Source of the DNA: Tahibacter aquaticus
Lineage (GTDB): Bacteria; Pseudomonadota; Gammaproteobacteria; Xanthomonadales; Rhodanobacteraceae
Reading direction: 5' to 3'
DNA: 64,000 bases
Assembly: GCF_004363655.1 (NCBI RefSeq)
Contig: NZ_SNZH01000007.1
Span: 124,001-188,000 of the forward strand
The translations under genes were made by a program, and so were the position numbers. Under the pieces are notes generated by a model. The model worked only from the letters and a program-made list of their open reading frames with translations, ran no database searches and was not told where the DNA came from. Positions 56,858-63,126 of this stretch are shown here, in pieces (position 1 is the first letter of the stretch; each line of letters begins with the position of its first letter).

Positions 56858-57169
56858 ATGGCCTACCGCGGCTTTTGGGATGTTCCGCGTCTACTGTTGA
56901 CGCAGGACGCTGCCGGTTTCTGGATTCTCGATTGCCGCTTTGATCCGGAGCGGGATGAATACCCGTCCGTGTTCAAGCTCTACTATGCCGGCTTCGATAC
57001 AGCGGCGGCGATGTCGATCTACGAAAACCACAATGCCGAAATCGTCGCCGGGTATCGCGGCGAGATCGCTTTCGCGGCGCTGGAATTCGATCCGAGCCGG
57101 CGCAAGCAGGTGCGCATTGCAGTGGGGCCGCGGTCGAACCGGGCAGTGTCTAGCCCGGCAGCAGCGTAA
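56858..57169 (+). CDS. Uncharacterised 103-residue protein
   Basis: I do not recognise the family. The peptide starts AYRGFWDVPRLLLTQD and has mixed beta strands (FWILDCRFD, FKLYYAGFD) and a basic tail; no signal or membrane segment. ATG 56858 is the first start after an in-frame TGA, and its ribosome site is weak. An ATG at 56815 in another frame (MNRLMTYE) reads only a short way, so a frameshifted longer gene is possible but not shown. Its end overlaps the convergent PAP2 gene by 20 bases. The 179 bases before it hold no other gene. Confidence 0.5.
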   Translation: MAYRGFWDVPRLLLTQDAAGFWILDCRFDPERDEYPSVFKLYYAGFDTAAAMSIYENHNAEIVAGYRGEIAFAALEFDPSRRKQVRIAVGPRSNRAVSSPAAA

Positions 57170-57710
57170 CTCCGGGCACCACCCACAACGAAACAGAAGC
57201 CAGGCCGCTGCCAATCACGGCAGCGGCCACTACATCGCTGGGAAAGTGCAGACCGAGGATCACGCGTGACGCGGCGACGAGCAGCGTGAACGGCAGCAGC
57301 AGCACAGCCAGCATCGGGAAATAGGCGATTGCGACAAGGCTGAAGCTCACCGCGTGCAAGGTATGTCCGGACGGAAAACTGTATTCGTCCAAGGGTGGAA
57401 TATGCGCCACGATGCCGTGGTGGGCGCGGAACGGGCGTGGCCGGCAGGTGCGTTTTTTCAGATTGCGGTAGAGCAGCAGGGCGACAATGCCGACGACGGC
57501 CATGTGCAGCGCCGCCTGGGCGCCGCGGCTGCCGCCGAACAGGGCCAGTACGGCCATCAGGCTGTACCAGAACACACCGTCGCCGGCGCGGCTGACCGCA
57601 CAGAAAAAGCGCGCGATGGTGCGGCGTGTGCCCCAGCGATTGGCGGCAAGGCAGACGCGCCATTCGCCGCTGCGGACTTCCAGGCGGTTCCAGCGTTCGA
57701 TCGCGTTCAT
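57150..57710 (-). CDS. PAP2-family lipid phosphatase
   Basis: A 186-residue membrane phosphatase with five to six hydrophobic helices. The three PAP2 motifs are intact: KKRTCRPRP, FPSGHTLH and SRVILGLHFPSD, which supply the catalytic His residues and Asp. Family members dephosphorylate phosphatidate to diacylglycerol or undecaprenyl pyrophosphate. Its ATG overlaps the stop of the GT4 gene (ATGA), so the two are translationally coupled. That pairing, and a Pho-box-like sequence before the GT4 gene, suggest phosphatidate as substrate during phosphate starvation. Confidence 0.9.
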   Translation of the reverse strand: MNAIERWNRLEVRSGEWRVCLAANRWGTRRTIARFFCAVSRAGDGVFWYSLMAVLALFGGSRGAQAALHMAVVGIVALLLYRNLKKRTCRPRPFRAHHGIVAHIPPLDEYSFPSGHTLHAVSFSLVAIAYFPMLAVLLLPFTLLVAASRVILGLHFPSDVVAAAVIGSGLASVSLWVVPGVTLLPG

Positions 57711-58837
57711 GCGCGGCTCCTCAGGTTCGCCAGCAGTTCGGCAAAGTGGTCGGTGACGGATTGGGGACTCAGGCCGCGCATCGCATCGCGGCCAGCGGCA
57801 GCAAGGCGGTGGCGCAGTGCGGGATCGCGGGCGAATTGCACAGCAGCTTCGACAAAGGCCTCGCCGTTGCTGCAGGCGATGCGGCGGCCGTTGCCGCCGT
57901 CGACGATGTGTTCGCGCGCCGCGCCGTAGTCGAAGGCGAGCGTGGCCACGCCACTGGCCATGGCTTCCAGGGTGACGTTGCCGAAGGTCTCGCTGAGCGA
58001 GGCAAACAGGAATAAATCGCAGCTGGCGAAATGCCGCGCCAGTTCTTCGCCGCGCAGCGTGCCGGCGAAGATGAAGTCGGGATTCTGCCGCGCCAGTTCG
58101 GCCCGGGCCGGGCCGTCGCCAATCCAGATATAGCGTGCCGCCGGACAGTGCTGCTGCAGCGCGCGGAAGGCGCGCACGTTCAGGGCGAGGTTTTTCTCCG
58201 GCGCAATGCGGCCGACGTAGACCACGGCCAGTTCGTCGTCGGTCAGGCCCCAGCGGGCGCGTAGCGCGGCATCGCGCCGGGCCGGATCGAACAGCTGGGT
58301 ATCGACCGCGCGGCGCAGCAGGCGCACATGATTGAAGCCGTTCTTGCCGAGGAAATCGGCCAGTTCCTGCGTCGGCACCAGCGTCGCGGCGGAACGGCCG
58401 TGGAAATGGCGCAGCCAGGCGAACACCAGCGGTGTGAGAAAACCCACGCCGTAGTGGCGGGCAAAGTCGTCGAAGCGGGTATGAAAGCCGGTACTGGCGG
58501 CAATGCCCAGCCGGTTTGCCGCGCGCAGGGCGGAATGGCCCAGCGGCCCTTCGGTGGCGACGTAGATGGCATCGGGGCGCTGCGCTTTCCACAGCGATTC
58601 CAGGCGGCGCCGCGCCGGCAGGCCGAAGCGCAGGCCCGGGTAGCGCGGCAGTGCGGCGCCGGTGACTTGTACGTCGTCGTCGACCAGGGCTGCATCGGCG
58701 TCGGCCGCTGGCTGGCGCGGGCGGATCAGCTGCACCTGGTGGCCGCGGCCGTGCAGGCCCTGGGCCAACGACTGCACCGTCAGCGCGACGCCGTTGATTT
58801 CGGGCGGATAGGTTTCGGTGACGATGGCGATGCGCAC
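57707..58837 (-). CDS. GT4 glycosyltransferase (glycolipid-type, MgtA-like)
   Basis: A 376-residue GT-B glycosyltransferase. The start at GTG 58837 is preferred because it gives the family N-terminus M-R-I-A-I-V-T-E-T-Y-P-P-E and has GGAG upstream; the frame is open 14 codons further. The N-terminal Rossmann half contains TGFHTRFDDFARHYG, and the C-terminal half VYVGRIAPEKNL, GDGPARAEL and the E-x7-E motif in SETFGNVTLEAMASG. Relatives transfer mannose or glucose to diacylglycerol or other lipids. Coupled to the PAP2 gene and divergent from pstC. Confidence 0.88.
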   Translation of the reverse strand: MRIAIVTETYPPEINGVALTVQSLAQGLHGRGHQVQLIRPRQPAADADAALVDDDVQVTGAALPRYPGLRFGLPARRRLESLWKAQRPDAIYVATEGPLGHSALRAANRLGIAASTGFHTRFDDFARHYGVGFLTPLVFAWLRHFHGRSAATLVPTQELADFLGKNGFNHVRLLRRAVDTQLFDPARRDAALRARWGLTDDELAVVYVGRIAPEKNLALNVRAFRALQQHCPAARYIWIGDGPARAELARQNPDFIFAGTLRGEELARHFASCDLFLFASLSETFGNVTLEAMASGVATLAFDYGAAREHIVDGGNGRRIACSNGEAFVEAAVQFARDPALRHRLAAAGRDAMRGLSPQSVTDHFAELLANLRSRA

Positions 58838-58945
58838 GGCGCGGACTCCGGACGCATCAGCGTTCTGCCGTGTCGCCACAGCCGGCTGGCATCCTCAGGT
58901 TTGGTCCATGCTGCGGCGGGGCGATTGCGCGCCGGTTGCGCTGGC

Positions 58946-58963
58946 GTGACGTCGCCGTGACAG
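58946..58963 (-). promoter_or_regulatory. Pho box candidate facing the GT4-PAP2 operon
   Basis: On the minus strand the 18 bases read CTGTCAC-GGCG-ACGTCAC. The first repeat fits the PhoB half-site CTGTCAY completely and the second matches the same 7-mer at five of seven, with the required 4-base spacer (11-base period). It lies about 110 bases before the GT4 start. Confidence 0.55.
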
Positions 58964-58983
58964 CGTACGGCCATGGCCGGGCT

Positions 58984-59001
58984 ATGTAATATGACTGTCA
59001 C
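58984..59001 (+). promoter_or_regulatory. Pho box candidate facing pstC
   Basis: ATGTAAT-ATGA-CTGTCAC: the downstream repeat fits the PhoB half-site CTGTCAY completely and the upstream one matches CTGTCAT at five of seven, again in 7-4-7 spacing. TAGCTT ten bases downstream (59012-59017) could be the -10 element, giving a start next to the pstC ATG at 59025. Confidence 0.6.
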
Positions 59002-59024
59002 AATCACCGCCTAGCTTGGTCCAA

Positions 59025-60119
59025 ATGTCCGTTCCGGCTGCATCTTTCCCGCCTCACTCGCTCACTGCCCGATTTGCCGCACGCGCCGCGCGGCGGCAGT
59101 GGCGTGAGCGTTGGCTGGGACGCGGCCTGCGTGGGCTCAGCCTGTTGCTGGCCCTGTTGCTGCTGGCCTTGCCGCTGTTTCTGCTATTCAACGCCCGTAT
59201 CGACGATGCCTGGCGCGAAGCCTTGCTGCCCTTGCTGGCCGGCAGTTTCAAGGCGGCGCTGTACGCCATGCTGGTGGCCTTGCCGCTGGGACTGGGCGCG
59301 GCGATCTGGTGCGCGCGCTTTGCCACGCCAGGGCTGCGCGGCCTGCTCAAGCCGGTGTTCGAACTGTTCGAGGCGGTGCCCGCGGTGGTGCTGGGGCTGA
59401 TCGCTGCCTTGATACTGGCGCCCTGGCTGGCGCAGCGTGTACTGGGCCTGGTGCTGTTGTTGGCCTTGCTGCCGCTGCTGGCACTGGCCGCGGGCTGGCT
59501 ATGGCAGCGGCTGGCGCCGGCAGGCTGGCAACGCTTCTGGCGCGGCCGCGAAATCGGGCTGCTGCTGCCGCTGGCGGCCTTGCTGGTGCCGTTGGCCCTG
59601 GGGCTGGGTCAGGCGCCGCTGTTTGCGTCCTTCGCTGCCCAGTTGCAGCCGGCCTCGCCCTGGAATGGCCTGGTCATCGGCCTGATGCTGGGCCTGGCCA
59701 CCATGCCGGTGATATTCACTCTGGCCGAGGACGCCTTGTTCGCCGTACCGGCCGATCTCGCTACCGGCGCGCAGGCGCTCGGGGCGACGCGCTGGCAGGC
59801 CTTGTGGCGGCTGGTGCTGCCGGTCGCTGCGCCGGGCATTGCTGCGGCAGTATTGCTGGGTTTCAGCCGCGCCCTGGGCGAAACCATGATCGTGCTGATG
59901 GCCAGTGGCAACACGCCGTTGTTGCAGGTGTCGCCGCTGAGCGGTTTGCGTTCGGTCGCGGCGAACCTTGCCCTGGAAGCGCCCGATGCGGTTCGCGGCA
60001 GTGTGCATTACGGCCAGCTGCTGTTCTCGGCGCTGTTGCTGTTCGGCCTGTGCCTGTTGCTGAATGCCCTGGCCGAGGGCGTGCGTGCACGCCTGCGCCA
60101 GCGCCTGGCCGGAAGCTAG
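59025..60119 (+). CDS. pstC: Phosphate ABC transporter permease PstC
   Basis: A 364-residue inner-membrane permease. About seven hydrophobic helices are visible. The ABC permease coupling motif is ATGAQALGATRWQALWRLVLP (the EAA loop, here in shortened quotation), and GETMIVLMASGNTP follows. After the first helix there is only a short periplasmic stretch. ATG 59025 is favoured over TTG 59016. It is the first gene of pstC-pstA-pstB-phoU; no pstS gene precedes it, since the divergent GT4 gene begins 187 bases upstream. Confidence 0.93.
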   Translation: MSVPAASFPPHSLTARFAARAARRQWRERWLGRGLRGLSLLLALLLLALPLFLLFNARIDDAWREALLPLLAGSFKAALYAMLVALPLGLGAAIWCARFATPGLRGLLKPVFELFEAVPAVVLGLIAALILAPWLAQRVLGLVLLLALLPLLALAAGWLWQRLAPAGWQRFWRGREIGLLLPLAALLVPLALGLGQAPLFASFAAQLQPASPWNGLVIGLMLGLATMPVIFTLAEDALFAVPADLATGAQALGATRWQALWRLVLPVAAPGIAAAVLLGFSRALGETMIVLMASGNTPLLQVSPLSGLRSVAANLALEAPDAVRGSVHYGQLLFSALLLFGLCLLLNALAEGVRARLRQRLAGS

Positions 60120-60124
60120 CGGCG

Positions 60125-61441
60125 ATGGCGAGTAATGCTTCCAGGCCGGTGCAGCGCCGGGATCTTGGCCTCTGGCTGGCGGCTGCCGCCGTGAGCACCA
60201 GCCTGCTCGCGCTGGCGGCCTTGCTCTGGGTGTTGCTGGCGCAGTCCTGGCAGGCGTTTGCGCCCGCGCCGGTCGCACTGCTGCAGTGGCGCGACGATGC
60301 CGGCGAACACAGCCTGCTCGCCAGCGTGCTGGCGCAGGACGAACAGGTGCTGATTGTGCGCGGCAGCGAGTGGCAGCGTCGTGGCGATGCCTACCGGCGC
60401 GTGCTGCGTTCTTCCCTTGTGCACTTGTCCTTTCCGGCGGATGCCTTGAACCTGCGCCTGGCCGACGGGCGCGAAATCCTGCTGCGCGGCAGCGAGCAGT
60501 CCTGGCGCGGTCTAGATCCGCAGCAGCGGCTGGTACTGCCGGGGGCGGACGGCGAAGTTCCGGTGCGCGGGGCCGATCTGGTGGAAGTCGTGGCGGTCAA
60601 CGCGCTGAGCGGCTGGCAGCGCCTGGGCACAGGGCTGCAGCGGGCGCTGGGTTTTGCCGGCGGCACCGGCGGCAGCGGGCTGTTCGCTGCGCTGCTCGGT
60701 ACCGTCGTTCTGGTGATGCTGATGAGCGTGCTGGTGATGCCGCTGGGCGTGCTGGTGGCGCTGTGGCTGCACGAGTACGCCGGCAACGACCAACTGGCAC
60801 GCGGCCTGCGCGCCGCCATCGCCAACCTGGCCAGCGTGCCGTCGGTGATCTACGGCCTGTTCGGCCTGGTGCTGTTCGTGCACGGTATCGGCGGCAGCCT
60901 CGATGTCTTGCTCAGTGGTACGACAGCGCCGGTGCCGCACTGGGGCAGGGGTGGTTTGCTCTGGTCGGCGTTGACCCTGGCCCTGCTGACCTTGCCGGTG
61001 GTGGTGATTTCGGTGGAGGAGGGCCTGGCGCGCGTGCCGCCGGGACTGCGCCAGGCGGCACTGGCCCTGGGCGCGACGCGGGCGGAAATGCTCTGGCGCG
61101 TGGTGTTGCCGGTGGCGCGGCCGGCCCTGCTGACAGCGCTGATTCTGGCCGTGGCGCGGGCGGCCGGCGAAGTGGCGCCGCTGATGCTGGTGGGCGCGGT
61201 CAAGTACGCGCCGGCGTTGCCGCTTAATGGAGAATTTCCGTATTTGCATTTATCGCAGCAATTCATGCACCTGGGGCATGGCGTGTACGACCTGGCGCTG
61301 ACCGGCAGCGACGGGCCGCGCGACCTGGCCCAGGCGCATGCGACGGCGCTGCTGCTGTTGCTGGTGGTAATAGGCCTGAACGCCTCGGCCATCGTCGTGC
61401 GCAACCGCTTGCGCGAGCGCAGCCGCGAGTTGTCCGCATGA
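60125..61441 (+). CDS. pstA: Phosphate ABC transporter permease PstA, with large periplasmic insert
   Basis: A 438-residue permease, about 140 longer than E. coli PstA. The first membrane helix (about residues 12-35) is followed by about 130 residues of hydrophilic beta-type sequence (VLIVRGSEWQRRGDAYRR, GREILLRGSEQSWRG) facing the periplasm. The usual permease core starts near residue 180 with the EAA-loop motif in QAALALGATRAEMLWRVVLP. Similar insert-bearing PstA proteins occur in pseudomonads. It starts five bases after pstC and overlaps pstB by four (ATGA). Confidence 0.92.
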   Translation: MASNASRPVQRRDLGLWLAAAAVSTSLLALAALLWVLLAQSWQAFAPAPVALLQWRDDAGEHSLLASVLAQDEQVLIVRGSEWQRRGDAYRRVLRSSLVHLSFPADALNLRLADGREILLRGSEQSWRGLDPQQRLVLPGADGEVPVRGADLVEVVAVNALSGWQRLGTGLQRALGFAGGTGGSGLFAALLGTVVLVMLMSVLVMPLGVLVALWLHEYAGNDQLARGLRAAIANLASVPSVIYGLFGLVLFVHGIGGSLDVLLSGTTAPVPHWGRGGLLWSALTLALLTLPVVVISVEEGLARVPPGLRQAALALGATRAEMLWRVVLPVARPALLTALILAVARAAGEVAPLMLVGAVKYAPALPLNGEFPYLHLSQQFMHLGHGVYDLALTGSDGPRDLAQAHATALLLLLVVIGLNASAIVVRNRLRERSRELSA

Positions 61442-62256
61442 GTGCGCCGGCACCTGTGGCCGCCATGCCCGGCGGCTTGCTTGACGGCCAGGAGCTGGCC
61501 TTGCAGGCGCGCGGCTTGAGCCTGGACTACGGCTCGCGCCGCGCGCTGGATGCGGTAGACCTGGCCGTGCCCTGCCGTCGCGTCACTGCGCTGATCGGCC
61601 CTTCCGGCTGCGGCAAGTCCAGCCTGCTGCGCTGTTTCAACCGGCTCAACGACGAGATTGCCGACTGCCGCATCGTCGGCGACGTGCGCGTATTCGGTGC
61701 CGATGCGTATGCGGCGGAGCTGTCCTTGCCGGAGCTGCGCCGCCGCGTCGGCATGGTGTTCCAGAAACCCAACCCGTTTCCCCAGTCGGTCAGCGAAAAC
61801 GTGGCCTTCGGCCTGCGCCTGGCGGGCCTGCGTGCGCGCCTGGAGCTGGAAGACCGCGTCGAGGCGGCACTGCGCGCCGCCGGCCTGTGGGAGGAAGTGC
61901 GCGACCGCCTGGGCGAAAGCGCGCTGCGCCTGTCGGCCGGCCAGCAGCAGCGCCTGGTGATCGCGCGCGCGCTGGCGGTGGAGCCGCAGGTATTGCTGAT
62001 GGACGAGCCAGCCTCGATGCTGGACCCGATCTCCACCCTGCGCTTCGAGGAACTGGTGGTGGCCCTGCGCGAGCGCTACAGCGTACTGCTGGTGACCCAC
62101 AATATGCAGCAGGCGGCGCGCGTGGCCGACTACACGGCGTATATGCAGGCTGGCCGGCTGCTCGAATTCGATACTACCGACCGCATTTTCACCAACCCGC
62201 GCCTGCGCGGCACGGAAGACTACATTACCGGCAAGCTGGCGCGGGACGAGGAGTAG
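61438..62256 (+). CDS. pstB: Phosphate ABC transporter ATPase PstB
   Basis: A 272-residue ABC ATPase. Walker A GPSGCGKS is at residues 54-61, the Q-loop in MVFQKPNPFP, the signature LSAGQQQRL at 165-173, and Walker B VLLMDEP at 185-191. The D-loop reads SMLDPIST where most PstB have SALDPIST. The RCFNRLND and PNPFPQSV segments are PstB-specific. Its ATG overlaps the pstA stop, typical of coupled subunits. phoU follows after a 147-base gap with its own Pho box candidate. Confidence 0.95.
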   Translation: MSAPAPVAAMPGGLLDGQELALQARGLSLDYGSRRALDAVDLAVPCRRVTALIGPSGCGKSSLLRCFNRLNDEIADCRIVGDVRVFGADAYAAELSLPELRRRVGMVFQKPNPFPQSVSENVAFGLRLAGLRARLELEDRVEAALRAAGLWEEVRDRLGESALRLSAGQQQRLVIARALAVEPQVLLMDEPASMLDPISTLRFEELVVALRERYSVLLVTHNMQQAARVADYTAYMQAGRLLEFDTTDRIFTNPRLRGTEDYITGKLARDEE

Positions 62257-62334
62257 CACGGAGGGCAGTGAAATTCCTTGCCTGGGCCGTCTTTCTGTTT
62301 TTTTCGCTGGTATTCTCAGACTAGATTTTTCTCA

Positions 62335-62352
62335 ATGTAAACACGGTGTCAT
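62335..62352 (+). promoter_or_regulatory. Pho box candidate before phoU
   Basis: ATGTAAA-CACG-GTGTCAT: the second repeat matches CTGTCAT at six of seven positions and the first at four of seven, with 4-base spacing. TACGCT at 62364-62369 could be a weak -10. It would give phoU its own PhoB-controlled promoter. Confidence 0.5.
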
Positions 62353-62403
62353 CGGGCCAGACCTACGCTAGCCTGCTTACGCCCCACGGACACGACGATA
62401 CCT

Positions 62404-63126
62404 ATGGATCGCTTGCATCTAGGCCAGCATATTTCCCAGCAGTTCAACAGCGAACTGGCCGCGCTGACGCGCCAGGTGCTGGCCATGGGCGGACTGGTCG
62501 AGGCACAGCTGGCCACGGCGCTGGAAGCGCTAGCCGCGCGCGACCTGCGCCAGGTGGCACAGGTGATGGCGCGGGAAGACGAGGTCAATGCGGCCGAGCT
62601 GGAAATCGATGCGCGCTGCACGCAGATCCTGGCACGGCGCCAGCCGGCGGCGTCGGATCTGCGCCTGGTGCTGGCGGTGGTGCGCATGGTGGCCAACCTG
62701 GAGCGCATCGGCGACGAAGCCGAGCGCATCGCCCGCATCGCCGAAAAGCTCGGTGCGGCGGAGCTGGCCGAACACTACCTGGTCAAGCTGATCCAGATGG
62801 GCAACCTGGTGCGCGACCAGTTGCGCGGCACCTTGGATACTTTTGCACGCATGGACGAAACCCGCGCGCTGGAACGCCTGCGCCGCGACCGCGAAGTGGA
62901 TGTGCTGTACAAGGAGCTAACGCGCCTGCTGGTGGACCTGATGCAGCGCGAATCCGAACGCGTGCCCGCCGCGCTGGAACTGCTGTGGAGCGCGCGCGCG
63001 CTGGAACGCATCGGCGATCGCTGCAAGAACATCTGCGAACAGGTGATCTACCTGGTGCGCGGCAAGGATGTGCGCCACACCGGCCTGGCACGCAGCGTTG
63101 CGCCGCTGCCCGACGTGAAATCGTAG
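62404..63126 (+). CDS. phoU: Phosphate signalling regulator PhoU
   Basis: A 240-residue all-helical protein made of two PhoU repeats, each with an E/DxxxD metal motif: LERIGDEAERIARIA near residue 100 and LERIGDRCKNICEQVIYL near 203. PhoU links the Pst transporter to the PhoR kinase and lowers PhoB activation when phosphate is plentiful. phoB and phoR are not in the window. The final residues are a short low-complexity tail. A 165-bp structured element follows the stop. Confidence 0.95.
   Translation: MDRLHLGQHISQQFNSELAALTRQVLAMGGLVEAQLATALEALAARDLRQVAQVMAREDEVNAAELEIDARCTQILARRQPAASDLRLVLAVVRMVANLERIGDEAERIARIAEKLGAAELAEHYLVKLIQMGNLVRDQLRGTLDTFARMDETRALERLRRDREVDVLYKELTRLLVDLMQRESERVPAALELLWSARALERIGDRCKNICEQVIYLVRGKDVRHTGLARSVAPLPDVKS

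Follow-up and report, generated by a model that had tools for sequence, protein, structure and literature searches.

The closest described system to the locus considered here is PlcP-Agt lipid renovation, reported for Pseudomonas aeruginosa (PA3219/PA3218/PA0842), Pelagibacter and Methylosinus (PMC8528852, PMC4796936, PMC9239053, PMC8231724). Phosphatidate phosphatases have been set beside PlcP as diacylglycerol sources and have been suggested for cyanobacteria (PMC4796936). The present analysis concerns a stretch of 64,000 nucleotides of the Tahibacter aquaticus genome (7.27 Mb), hereafter the window (G000:C7:124001-188000), in which genes encoding a GT4 glycosyltransferase and a PAP2 phosphatase lie beside pstC. 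According to the preferred reading, to which a probability of about 0.6 is given, this pair would form a two-gene operon that PhoB activates and that remodels the membrane to save phosphorus, working by the steps proposed below; it is most plausibly described as PlcP-Agt remodelling in a Pho-regulated variant form, with PAP2 coupled to an Agt-like enzyme. The Pho arrays, the operon, its conservation, the kinship with Agt and the presence of a plcP-like gene are well supported by the sequence comparisons.

The first-pass annotation had described the GT4 and PAP2 genes as overlapping by 4 bp and as divergent from pstC, and both features are borne out by the coordinates (last base of the GT4 gene 57707 and ATG of the PAP2 gene 57710, both on the minus strand; ATG of pstC 59025, plus strand). 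The two 18-bp sequences of 7-4-7 geometry that it reported, one per direction, were likewise found (58946-58963 and 58984-59001). Sites were scored against the consensus CTGTCAY-N4-CTGTCAY with 14 scored positions per 18-mer, the published Pho-box consensus being CTGTCATNNNNCTGTCAT (PMC8528852). The GT4-facing 18-mer (minus strand, 58963-58946), CTGTCAC-GGCG-ACGTCAC, scored 12/14, and the 160 bp before GT4 in the window gave p ~0.01 relative to shuffles of the same 160 bp. A scan of the 64-kb window with at most two mismatches returned three matches versus 1.13 expected (standard deviation 1.17), a number reached in 13 of 100 shuffles. In the GT4-directed array of the window, the third and fourth 7-mers (GCGCAAC and GCGCAAT) are weak (3/7 each), and an offset reading with two 7-mers further upstream ties with the four-repeat form (both 18/28); the four-repeat form is suggested by orthologues such as L051 (21/28). 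For the plcP and pstS promoters elsewhere in the same genome, as read by eye, the array lies 10 bp ahead of TAGCCT and TACAAA, respectively.

The array was then scored in orthologous regions. From 68 loci of the same order, 58 non-redundant loci with a full GT4 frame were retained (L064, L067 and L068 were dropped for a GT4 frame incomplete by rule, and L002-L007 and L011 as seven near-duplicates). The pst genes were next door in 17 of them and were not seen next door in 41, the loci from searched genomes having flanks of ~1.5 kb and L041, with only ~450 bp upstream of GT4, possibly adjoining pst in truth. The array score comprised four 7-mers at 11-bp spacing within the 160 bp before GT4 and was counted as positive at p ≤ 0.05 relative to shuffles. 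GT4-facing arrays were detected in 35 of the 41 non-pst loci with 200 shuffles (34 with 100 shuffles) and in 14 of the 17 pst-adjacent loci (13 with 100 shuffles), whereas control periods of 7, 8, 9, 10, 12, 13, 14 and 15 gave 1, 0, 6, 0, 2, 0, 1 and 1 positives of 41, respectively; eleven scrambled 7-mers gave 0-3 of 41. Scoring with two 7-mers was weaker (20/41 non-pst and 12/17 pst loci). In 25 of the 41 loci, the distance from the start of the best array to the GT4 start was 77-85 bp. Period-11 arrays were also found in 19 of 29 loci of a class sample (two of the order included; periods 9, 10, 12 and 13 gave 1, 0, 2 and 2), and the same test was positive for the pstS promoters of 24 of 27 loci, own genome included, with 1-3 positives at other periods (30 loci less L111-L113, which were under the family cut-off). 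A PhoB above the family cut-off is encoded in the genome. The PhoB control claimed in the first-pass annotation is well supported by these conserved period-11 arrays, including those at loci without pst nearby, and the Pho-box scores in orthologous regions, which it had proposed as a check, lie above background (34-35/41 non-pst loci versus 0-6/41 at other periods). The orthologous regions indicate that the Pho sites of the window are not due to chance; PhoB-type control of GT4-PAP2 independent of pst is well supported, and Pho control of the pair is very likely. Tandem CTGTCAY half-sites at 11-bp spacing are conserved upstream, as expected of a Pho regulon member, with weak significance in the window alone.

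In 56 of the 58 order loci, with start codons picked by rule, PAP2 begins at -40 to +30 bp relative to the end of GT4, and in 34 the overlap is exactly 4 bp; the two loci outside this range were L033 (163-bp gap) and L066 (274-bp gap, with the GT4 match split over two frames). The arrangement of the pair beside pst, for which a search in relatives had been recommended, is retained only in part, namely, the pair itself in 56/58 loci and the pst adjacency in 17/58, the latter being a local feature. The closest named GT4 matches included Tahibacter species (78-84% identity) and unclassified Lysobacterales, and named matches in general included Tahibacter, Dokdonella, Rudaea and Arenimonas (Lysobacterales). 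In the class sample, a GT4 match at E ≤ 1e-70 was present in 35 of 274 genomes. Among 27 loci outside the order (L117-L143), PAP2 was directly downstream (≤120 bp) in 19, followed after one intervening gene in three (L131, L133, L139), and was not seen within flanks of ≤1.5 kb in five (L118, L128, L130, L132, L134). No conserved third gene was detected in L031-L067: of the families other than GT4 and PAP2 in the 30 largest clusters, which came from rough open reading frame calls and carried no annotation, none was present in over 5 of the 24 non-pst loci.

In a 76-row tree, which was rooted at the midpoint and whose bootstrap had not settled, a branch with support of 100/99 united the GT4 clade with the GT4 enzymes encoded directly beside PlcP (Agt), as against GpgS and four other GT4 proteins of the own genome. 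Agt formed one group at 100/100, and the GT4 clade (90/96) stood beside it, not inside. Eleven of the 12 GpgS rows formed a separate clade, the twelfth being a truncated sequence; L196 was only 105 amino acids (aa) long. The tree used 10 of the 42 order rows and left out L136, L147, L164-L166 (same places as L133, L131, L139), L171, L176 and L181. The motifs GRVAXEKN and FPSXTDTFG are those of GTcp and its homologues, in which replacement of the Asp of the latter motif by Glu was reported to cut activity by >90% (PMC8231724). Glu283 was invariant in the 42-row GT4 alignment; in class loci of the GT4 clade, the donor-site motif carried Glu in 25, Asp in one and was unmatched in three (n = 29), whereas the PlcP-adjacent GT4 enzymes had a TDTFG-type motif with Asp in 23 and were unmatched in three (n = 26). 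Because of the separate tree clade and the Glu in place of Asp, the GT4 is assigned from its sequence to a position beside the Agt clade and outside it. It should be noted that Agt and PlcP are so named here from homology, from operon context and from motifs in the literature. The two best NCBIfam models, N-acetylglucosaminyl (GlcNAc)-phosphatidylglycerol synthase and alpha-monoglucosyldiacylglycerol synthase, both matched far under cut-off. The AlphaFold2 model of the GT4 was confident (mean predicted local distance difference test, pLDDT, 91.5), and its Foldseek matches were BshA, MshA and PimA, which do not settle the acceptor or substrate. Since a protein search of the own genome with the GT4 matched at E ≤ 0.001 only the GT4 itself, a second Agt-like enzyme was not found there; the glucosaminyl-phosphatidylglycerol model finds six weaker GT4 proteins in this genome, the next at 62 bits.

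The PAP2 protein contains residues invariant over 41 rows (K85, R92, P93, P113-H116, S148, R149, H155 and D159), which are those of the KX6RP, PSGH and SRX5HX3D motifs. These residues and the fold (PF01569; AlphaFold2 pLDDT 92.5; Foldseek) place it in the PAP2 superfamily. Its Foldseek matches were YodM, PgpB and LpxE, and the fold does not settle the substrate; with respect to LpxE, 5 of the 41 members matched NF007159 weakly, and structure 6ebu was matched at a template modelling score of 0.83 by target length. In PgpB and LpxE, the active site is on the periplasmic side.

A plcP-like gene (289 bits) was identified on another contig (G000:C1:665308-666048), with metallophosphoesterase motifs recognized by eye in its translation and with its own array, CTGTCAT-CTGACCC-CGGCAAC-CGGAGAC (p 0.02). 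As in the PlcP-Agt pathway, the genome thus holds a plcP with a Pho box, but this gene does not adjoin the glycosyltransferase, whose neighbours are PAP2 and pstC. The name PlcP for the family rests on the plcP-agt layout and on the distance to LpxH, and should be regarded as putative; LpxH has been the outgroup for PlcP (PMC9239053). Operons of the known plcP-agt layout were present in G043, G045, G053 and G055, and in the class set, an Agt-type GT4 was directly downstream on the same strand in 21 of 30 PlcP loci. The plcP arrays, tested in a subset of the genomes with a match (20 order-set and 30 class loci), were positive in 16/20 and 18/30, respectively (periods 9, 10, 12 and 13: 4, 0, 0 and 1; and 2, 0, 1 and 4). 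The numbers of genomes with both GT4 and PlcP, GT4 only, PlcP only and neither were 41, 7, 5 and 8 in the order set (Fisher p 0.0015) and 24, 8, 55 and 187 in the class sample (Fisher p 9.5e-9), where G117, G172 and G180 (GT4 E ~1e-71) were counted as lacking a GT4 of the clade; these p values are a guide only, the genomes being related. Of the five order-set genomes with PlcP only, four were those with plcP-agt operons. The suggestion of the first-pass annotation that the pair is a route different from PlcP-Agt is unsupported for this genome, where a plcP-like gene is preceded by an array of its own and GT4 groups with Agt, and is further weakened by the gene order GT4-plcP-PAP2 in two genomes (L131, L133). 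A strong PlcP match was absent in 7 of the 48 order-set genomes that carry GT4 (G001, G013, G023, G029, G033, G038 and G048, of which G001 and G033 are only ~95% complete) and in 8 of the 32 of the class sample, and because of these genomes a PlcP-free PAP2 route is possible in some hosts. Among four order loci read without a strong PlcP match, L014 and L022 passed the array test, and L013 and L034 failed the 160-bp test, in L034 because the box lies >200 bp out.

Single loci outside the order, chosen since PAP2 was absent or displaced, provide a further indication of function. A PlcP-type metallophosphoesterase is located between GT4 and PAP2 in L131 and L133, and on the other strand between them in L139; olsB- and olsA-like genes precede and follow GT4 in L118 (164 and 149 bits, both under cut-offs); and in L128 a prokaryotic diacylglycerol kinase gene (dgkA) is just upstream of GT4, together with a second GT4 and, further upstream, a PlcP-type match with one stop. 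In L134, UDP-glucose 6-dehydrogenase is encoded downstream of GT4 on the other strand. Because the gene can adjoin plcP, olsBA or dgkA in other families, a glycerolipid-glycosylating role of the GT4 is likely. Separately, an olsB-like gene was seen by eye beside GT4 in L127.

The following mechanism is proposed. At low phosphate, phosphorylated PhoB would bind the 11-bp-spaced half-site array 10 bp before the -10-like element and switch on GT4 and PAP2 together, and the facing Pho box would provide the same switch for pstCAB-phoU. PAP2, with its presumed periplasmic-side active site, would dephosphorylate a lipid, phosphatidic acid being the likeliest substrate, to give diacylglycerol; GT4, a GT-B enzyme presumed to be cytoplasmic, would transfer a sugar from a UDP-sugar onto diacylglycerol, giving a phosphate-free glycolipid. 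Part of the diacylglycerol would perhaps come from the action of PlcP, whose Pho-linked gene lies on another contig. The lipid remodelling claimed earlier is favoured by the phylogeny and by the neighbourhoods outside the order, and within it we infer PhoB binding and induction, the acceptor, the sugar and the PAP2 substrate. A wider proposal, made tentatively, is that the pair may represent a second widespread Pho lipid-renovation branch, in which a PAP2 phosphatidate phosphatase and a separate-clade Agt-like GT4 would form diacylglycerol de novo and then glycosylate it. In most hosts this branch would operate alongside PlcP, and it would take the place of PlcP where that enzyme is lacking.

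Several results weigh against the preferred reading. The window's own sites, at 12/14 each, are not significant over 64 kb; one scrambled 7-mer was positive in 12/41 loci and the opposite strand in 7/41; no significant array was obtained in 6-7 of the 41 order loci and 10 of the 29 class loci; and the orthologous promoters share ancestry, the locus counts not being independent tests. The best NCBIfam match of the GT4 is the GlcNAc-phosphatidylglycerol synthase GpgS model NF053787, at 137-139 bits versus a cut-off of 480, which is not reached; Glu occupies the position of the catalytic Asp of the Agt clade, the Asp of FPSxTDTFG being absent; and long branches, among them those that connect Agt and GpgS with the other sequences, were flagged by the tree program. 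For PAP2, the best NCBIfam match is the undecaprenyl-diphosphatase SepP (61 bits versus a cut-off of 250). A PlcP-free Pho route, in particular, is disfavoured by the class-locus arrays, found in 17/23 loci with a strong PlcP match versus 2/6 without.

That GT4 uses PlcP-derived diacylglycerol alone, while PAP2 performs a separate phosphate-saving job on phosphatidylglycerophosphate, undecaprenyl diphosphate or lipid A phosphate, is unlikely but deserves consideration, given the plcP-like gene with a Pho array in this genome, the joint presence of PAP2 and PlcP in the GT4-plcP-PAP2 order of L131 and L133, and the matches of PAP2 to the SepP, PgpB and LpxE (5/41) models and to the YodM, PgpB and LpxE structures; it is countered by the position of PAP2 tight behind GT4 in 56/58 order loci, with the own plcP elsewhere, and by the retention of GT4 in the 7/48 and 8/32 genomes without a strong PlcP match. 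Glycosylation of an intact phospholipid, e.g., phosphatidylglycerol as by GpgS, would leave the phosphate in the product; the GlcNAc-phosphatidylglycerol synthase model, the top one for the window protein, was matched by all 42 aligned members, but this explanation is improbable in view of the 139 bits against 480, the separate clade of 11 of the 12 GpgS rows, the eight GT4-bearing class genomes that also hold a GpgS-type protein (E ≤ 1e-100, six over the family cut-off), and an operon partner that is PAP2 and not a deacetylase. The identification of the GT4 as GpgS was rejected on the bit score, the separate clade and the co-occurrence of GpgS-type proteins in the same genomes.

The SepP match would also suit synthesis of a polyprenyl-linked glycan, with PAP2 recycling undecaprenyl diphosphate, which is made very improbable by the Pho arrays, the Agt kinship and the lack of a conserved neighbour family around the pair (clusters unnamed). 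Finally, since the pair abuts pst in Tahibacter and some other genera, both Pho boxes might serve pst only, with GT4-PAP2 as a bystander; this is scarcely credible, the GT4-facing array being kept in 34-35 of the 41 loci not seen beside pst, and the bystander role was rejected because arrays facing GT4 persist away from pst.

Features of the GT4-PAP2 locus and the divergent pst genes in the window
Feature	Coordinates	Strand	Basis and remarks
GT4 glycosyltransferase	57707..58837	minus	376 aa, GTG start (most likely); Pfam GT4 domains, orthologue-set start, 42-row alignment, tree, AlphaFold2 model pLDDT 91.5
PAP2 phosphatase	57150..57710	minus	186 aa; Pfam PF01569, motif residues, AlphaFold2 model pLDDT 92.5, Foldseek
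GT4-directed Pho-box array, four 7-mers, 11-bp spacing: CTGTCAC, ACGTCAC, GCGCAAC, GCGCAAT	58924..58963	minus	sequence and orthologues
-10-like hexamer CAGCAT	58908..58913	minus	10 bp after GT4-side array; read by eye
pst-directed Pho box ATGTAAT-ATGA-CTGTCAC	58984..59001	plus	12/14 to consensus
-10-like hexamer TAGCTT	59012..59017	plus	10 bp after pst box; 7 nt before pstC ATG
pstC, divergent neighbour	59025..60119	plus	NCBIfam TIGR02138, 160 bits, under 196-bit cut-off
pstA	60125..61441	plus	NCBIfam TIGR00974, 198 bits
pstB	61438..62256	plus	NCBIfam TIGR00972, 335 bits, just under 343-bit cut-off
phoU	62404..63126	plus	NCBIfam TIGR02135, 208 bits

The GT4 start is most likely the GTG at 58837 (376 aa), because MRIAIVTETYPP, or a sequence close to it, is the N-terminus of most orthologues; the frame's earliest start codon, at 58879, was rejected since these N-termini fit 58837. 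On the pst side (window 58995-59027, L001), a Pho half-site is followed after 10 bp by a TAGCGT-like hexamer and, 5-7 nt further, by the pstC ATG, a layout observed in 14 of the 17 pst loci scanned (L001, L009, L010, L031-L034, L036, L038, L039, L044, L048, L051 and L058); because the hexamer stands only 5-7 nt before the ATG in these loci, pstC is probably leaderless. The pstCAB-phoU set (59025-63126) has no adjoining pstS; the single TIGR00975 match of the genome, pstS, is ~19 kb before the window start (L069) and, as read by eye, neighbours a second permease pair. In the pstS arrays of the order (L085-L110, L069), CTGTCAY is mixed with CTGCAAC/CTGAAAC half-sites at 11-bp spacing, which is looser than the published consensus. 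A 103-aa frame convergent with PAP2 (56858-57169) had no Pfam or NCBIfam match; L003 and L031 have a 35% match to its residues 4-85 at the corresponding position.

Among the literature matches listed, no title or shown abstract described a Pho operon of PAP2 and a glycosyltransferase, subscription journals and preprints being outside the scope of the search. If the preferred reading is true, a phosphatase-coupled branch would be added to PlcP-Agt renovation in Lysobacterales and other Gammaproteobacteria, and the pair would provide candidate genes for how these bacteria save membrane phosphorus. The importance of these lipids may not be limited to saving phosphate, because comparable glycolipids of P. 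aeruginosa were reported to be protective against polymyxin B (PMC8528852).

Compared with known systems, OlsBA ornithine-lipid synthesis likewise yields a phosphorus-free surrogate lipid, and olsB/olsA-like genes flank GT4 in L118, but ols genes are not beside the window pair. GpgSDF glucosaminyl-phosphatidylglycerol synthesis (PMC12713373) shares the GT4 family and, as inferred for the present enzyme, a lipid acceptor, whereas the window GT4 belongs to a separate clade, far under the family cut-off, and no deacetylase or flippase gene adjoins it in the window. The phosphatidate phosphatase suggested for cyanobacteria is similarly a possible diacylglycerol source for glycolipids; here, however, PAP2, as a putative phosphatidate phosphatase, shares one Pho-linked operon with a glycosyltransferase. 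With PlcP-Agt, the locus has in common Pho-box control, a GT4 enzyme of the neighbouring clade and, elsewhere in the genome, a plcP-like gene preceded by a Pho array; it differs in that the Agt-like gene is paired with PAP2 instead of plcP, plcP is unlinked, Glu replaces the Asp of the Agt clade, and the pair adjoins pst in some genera.

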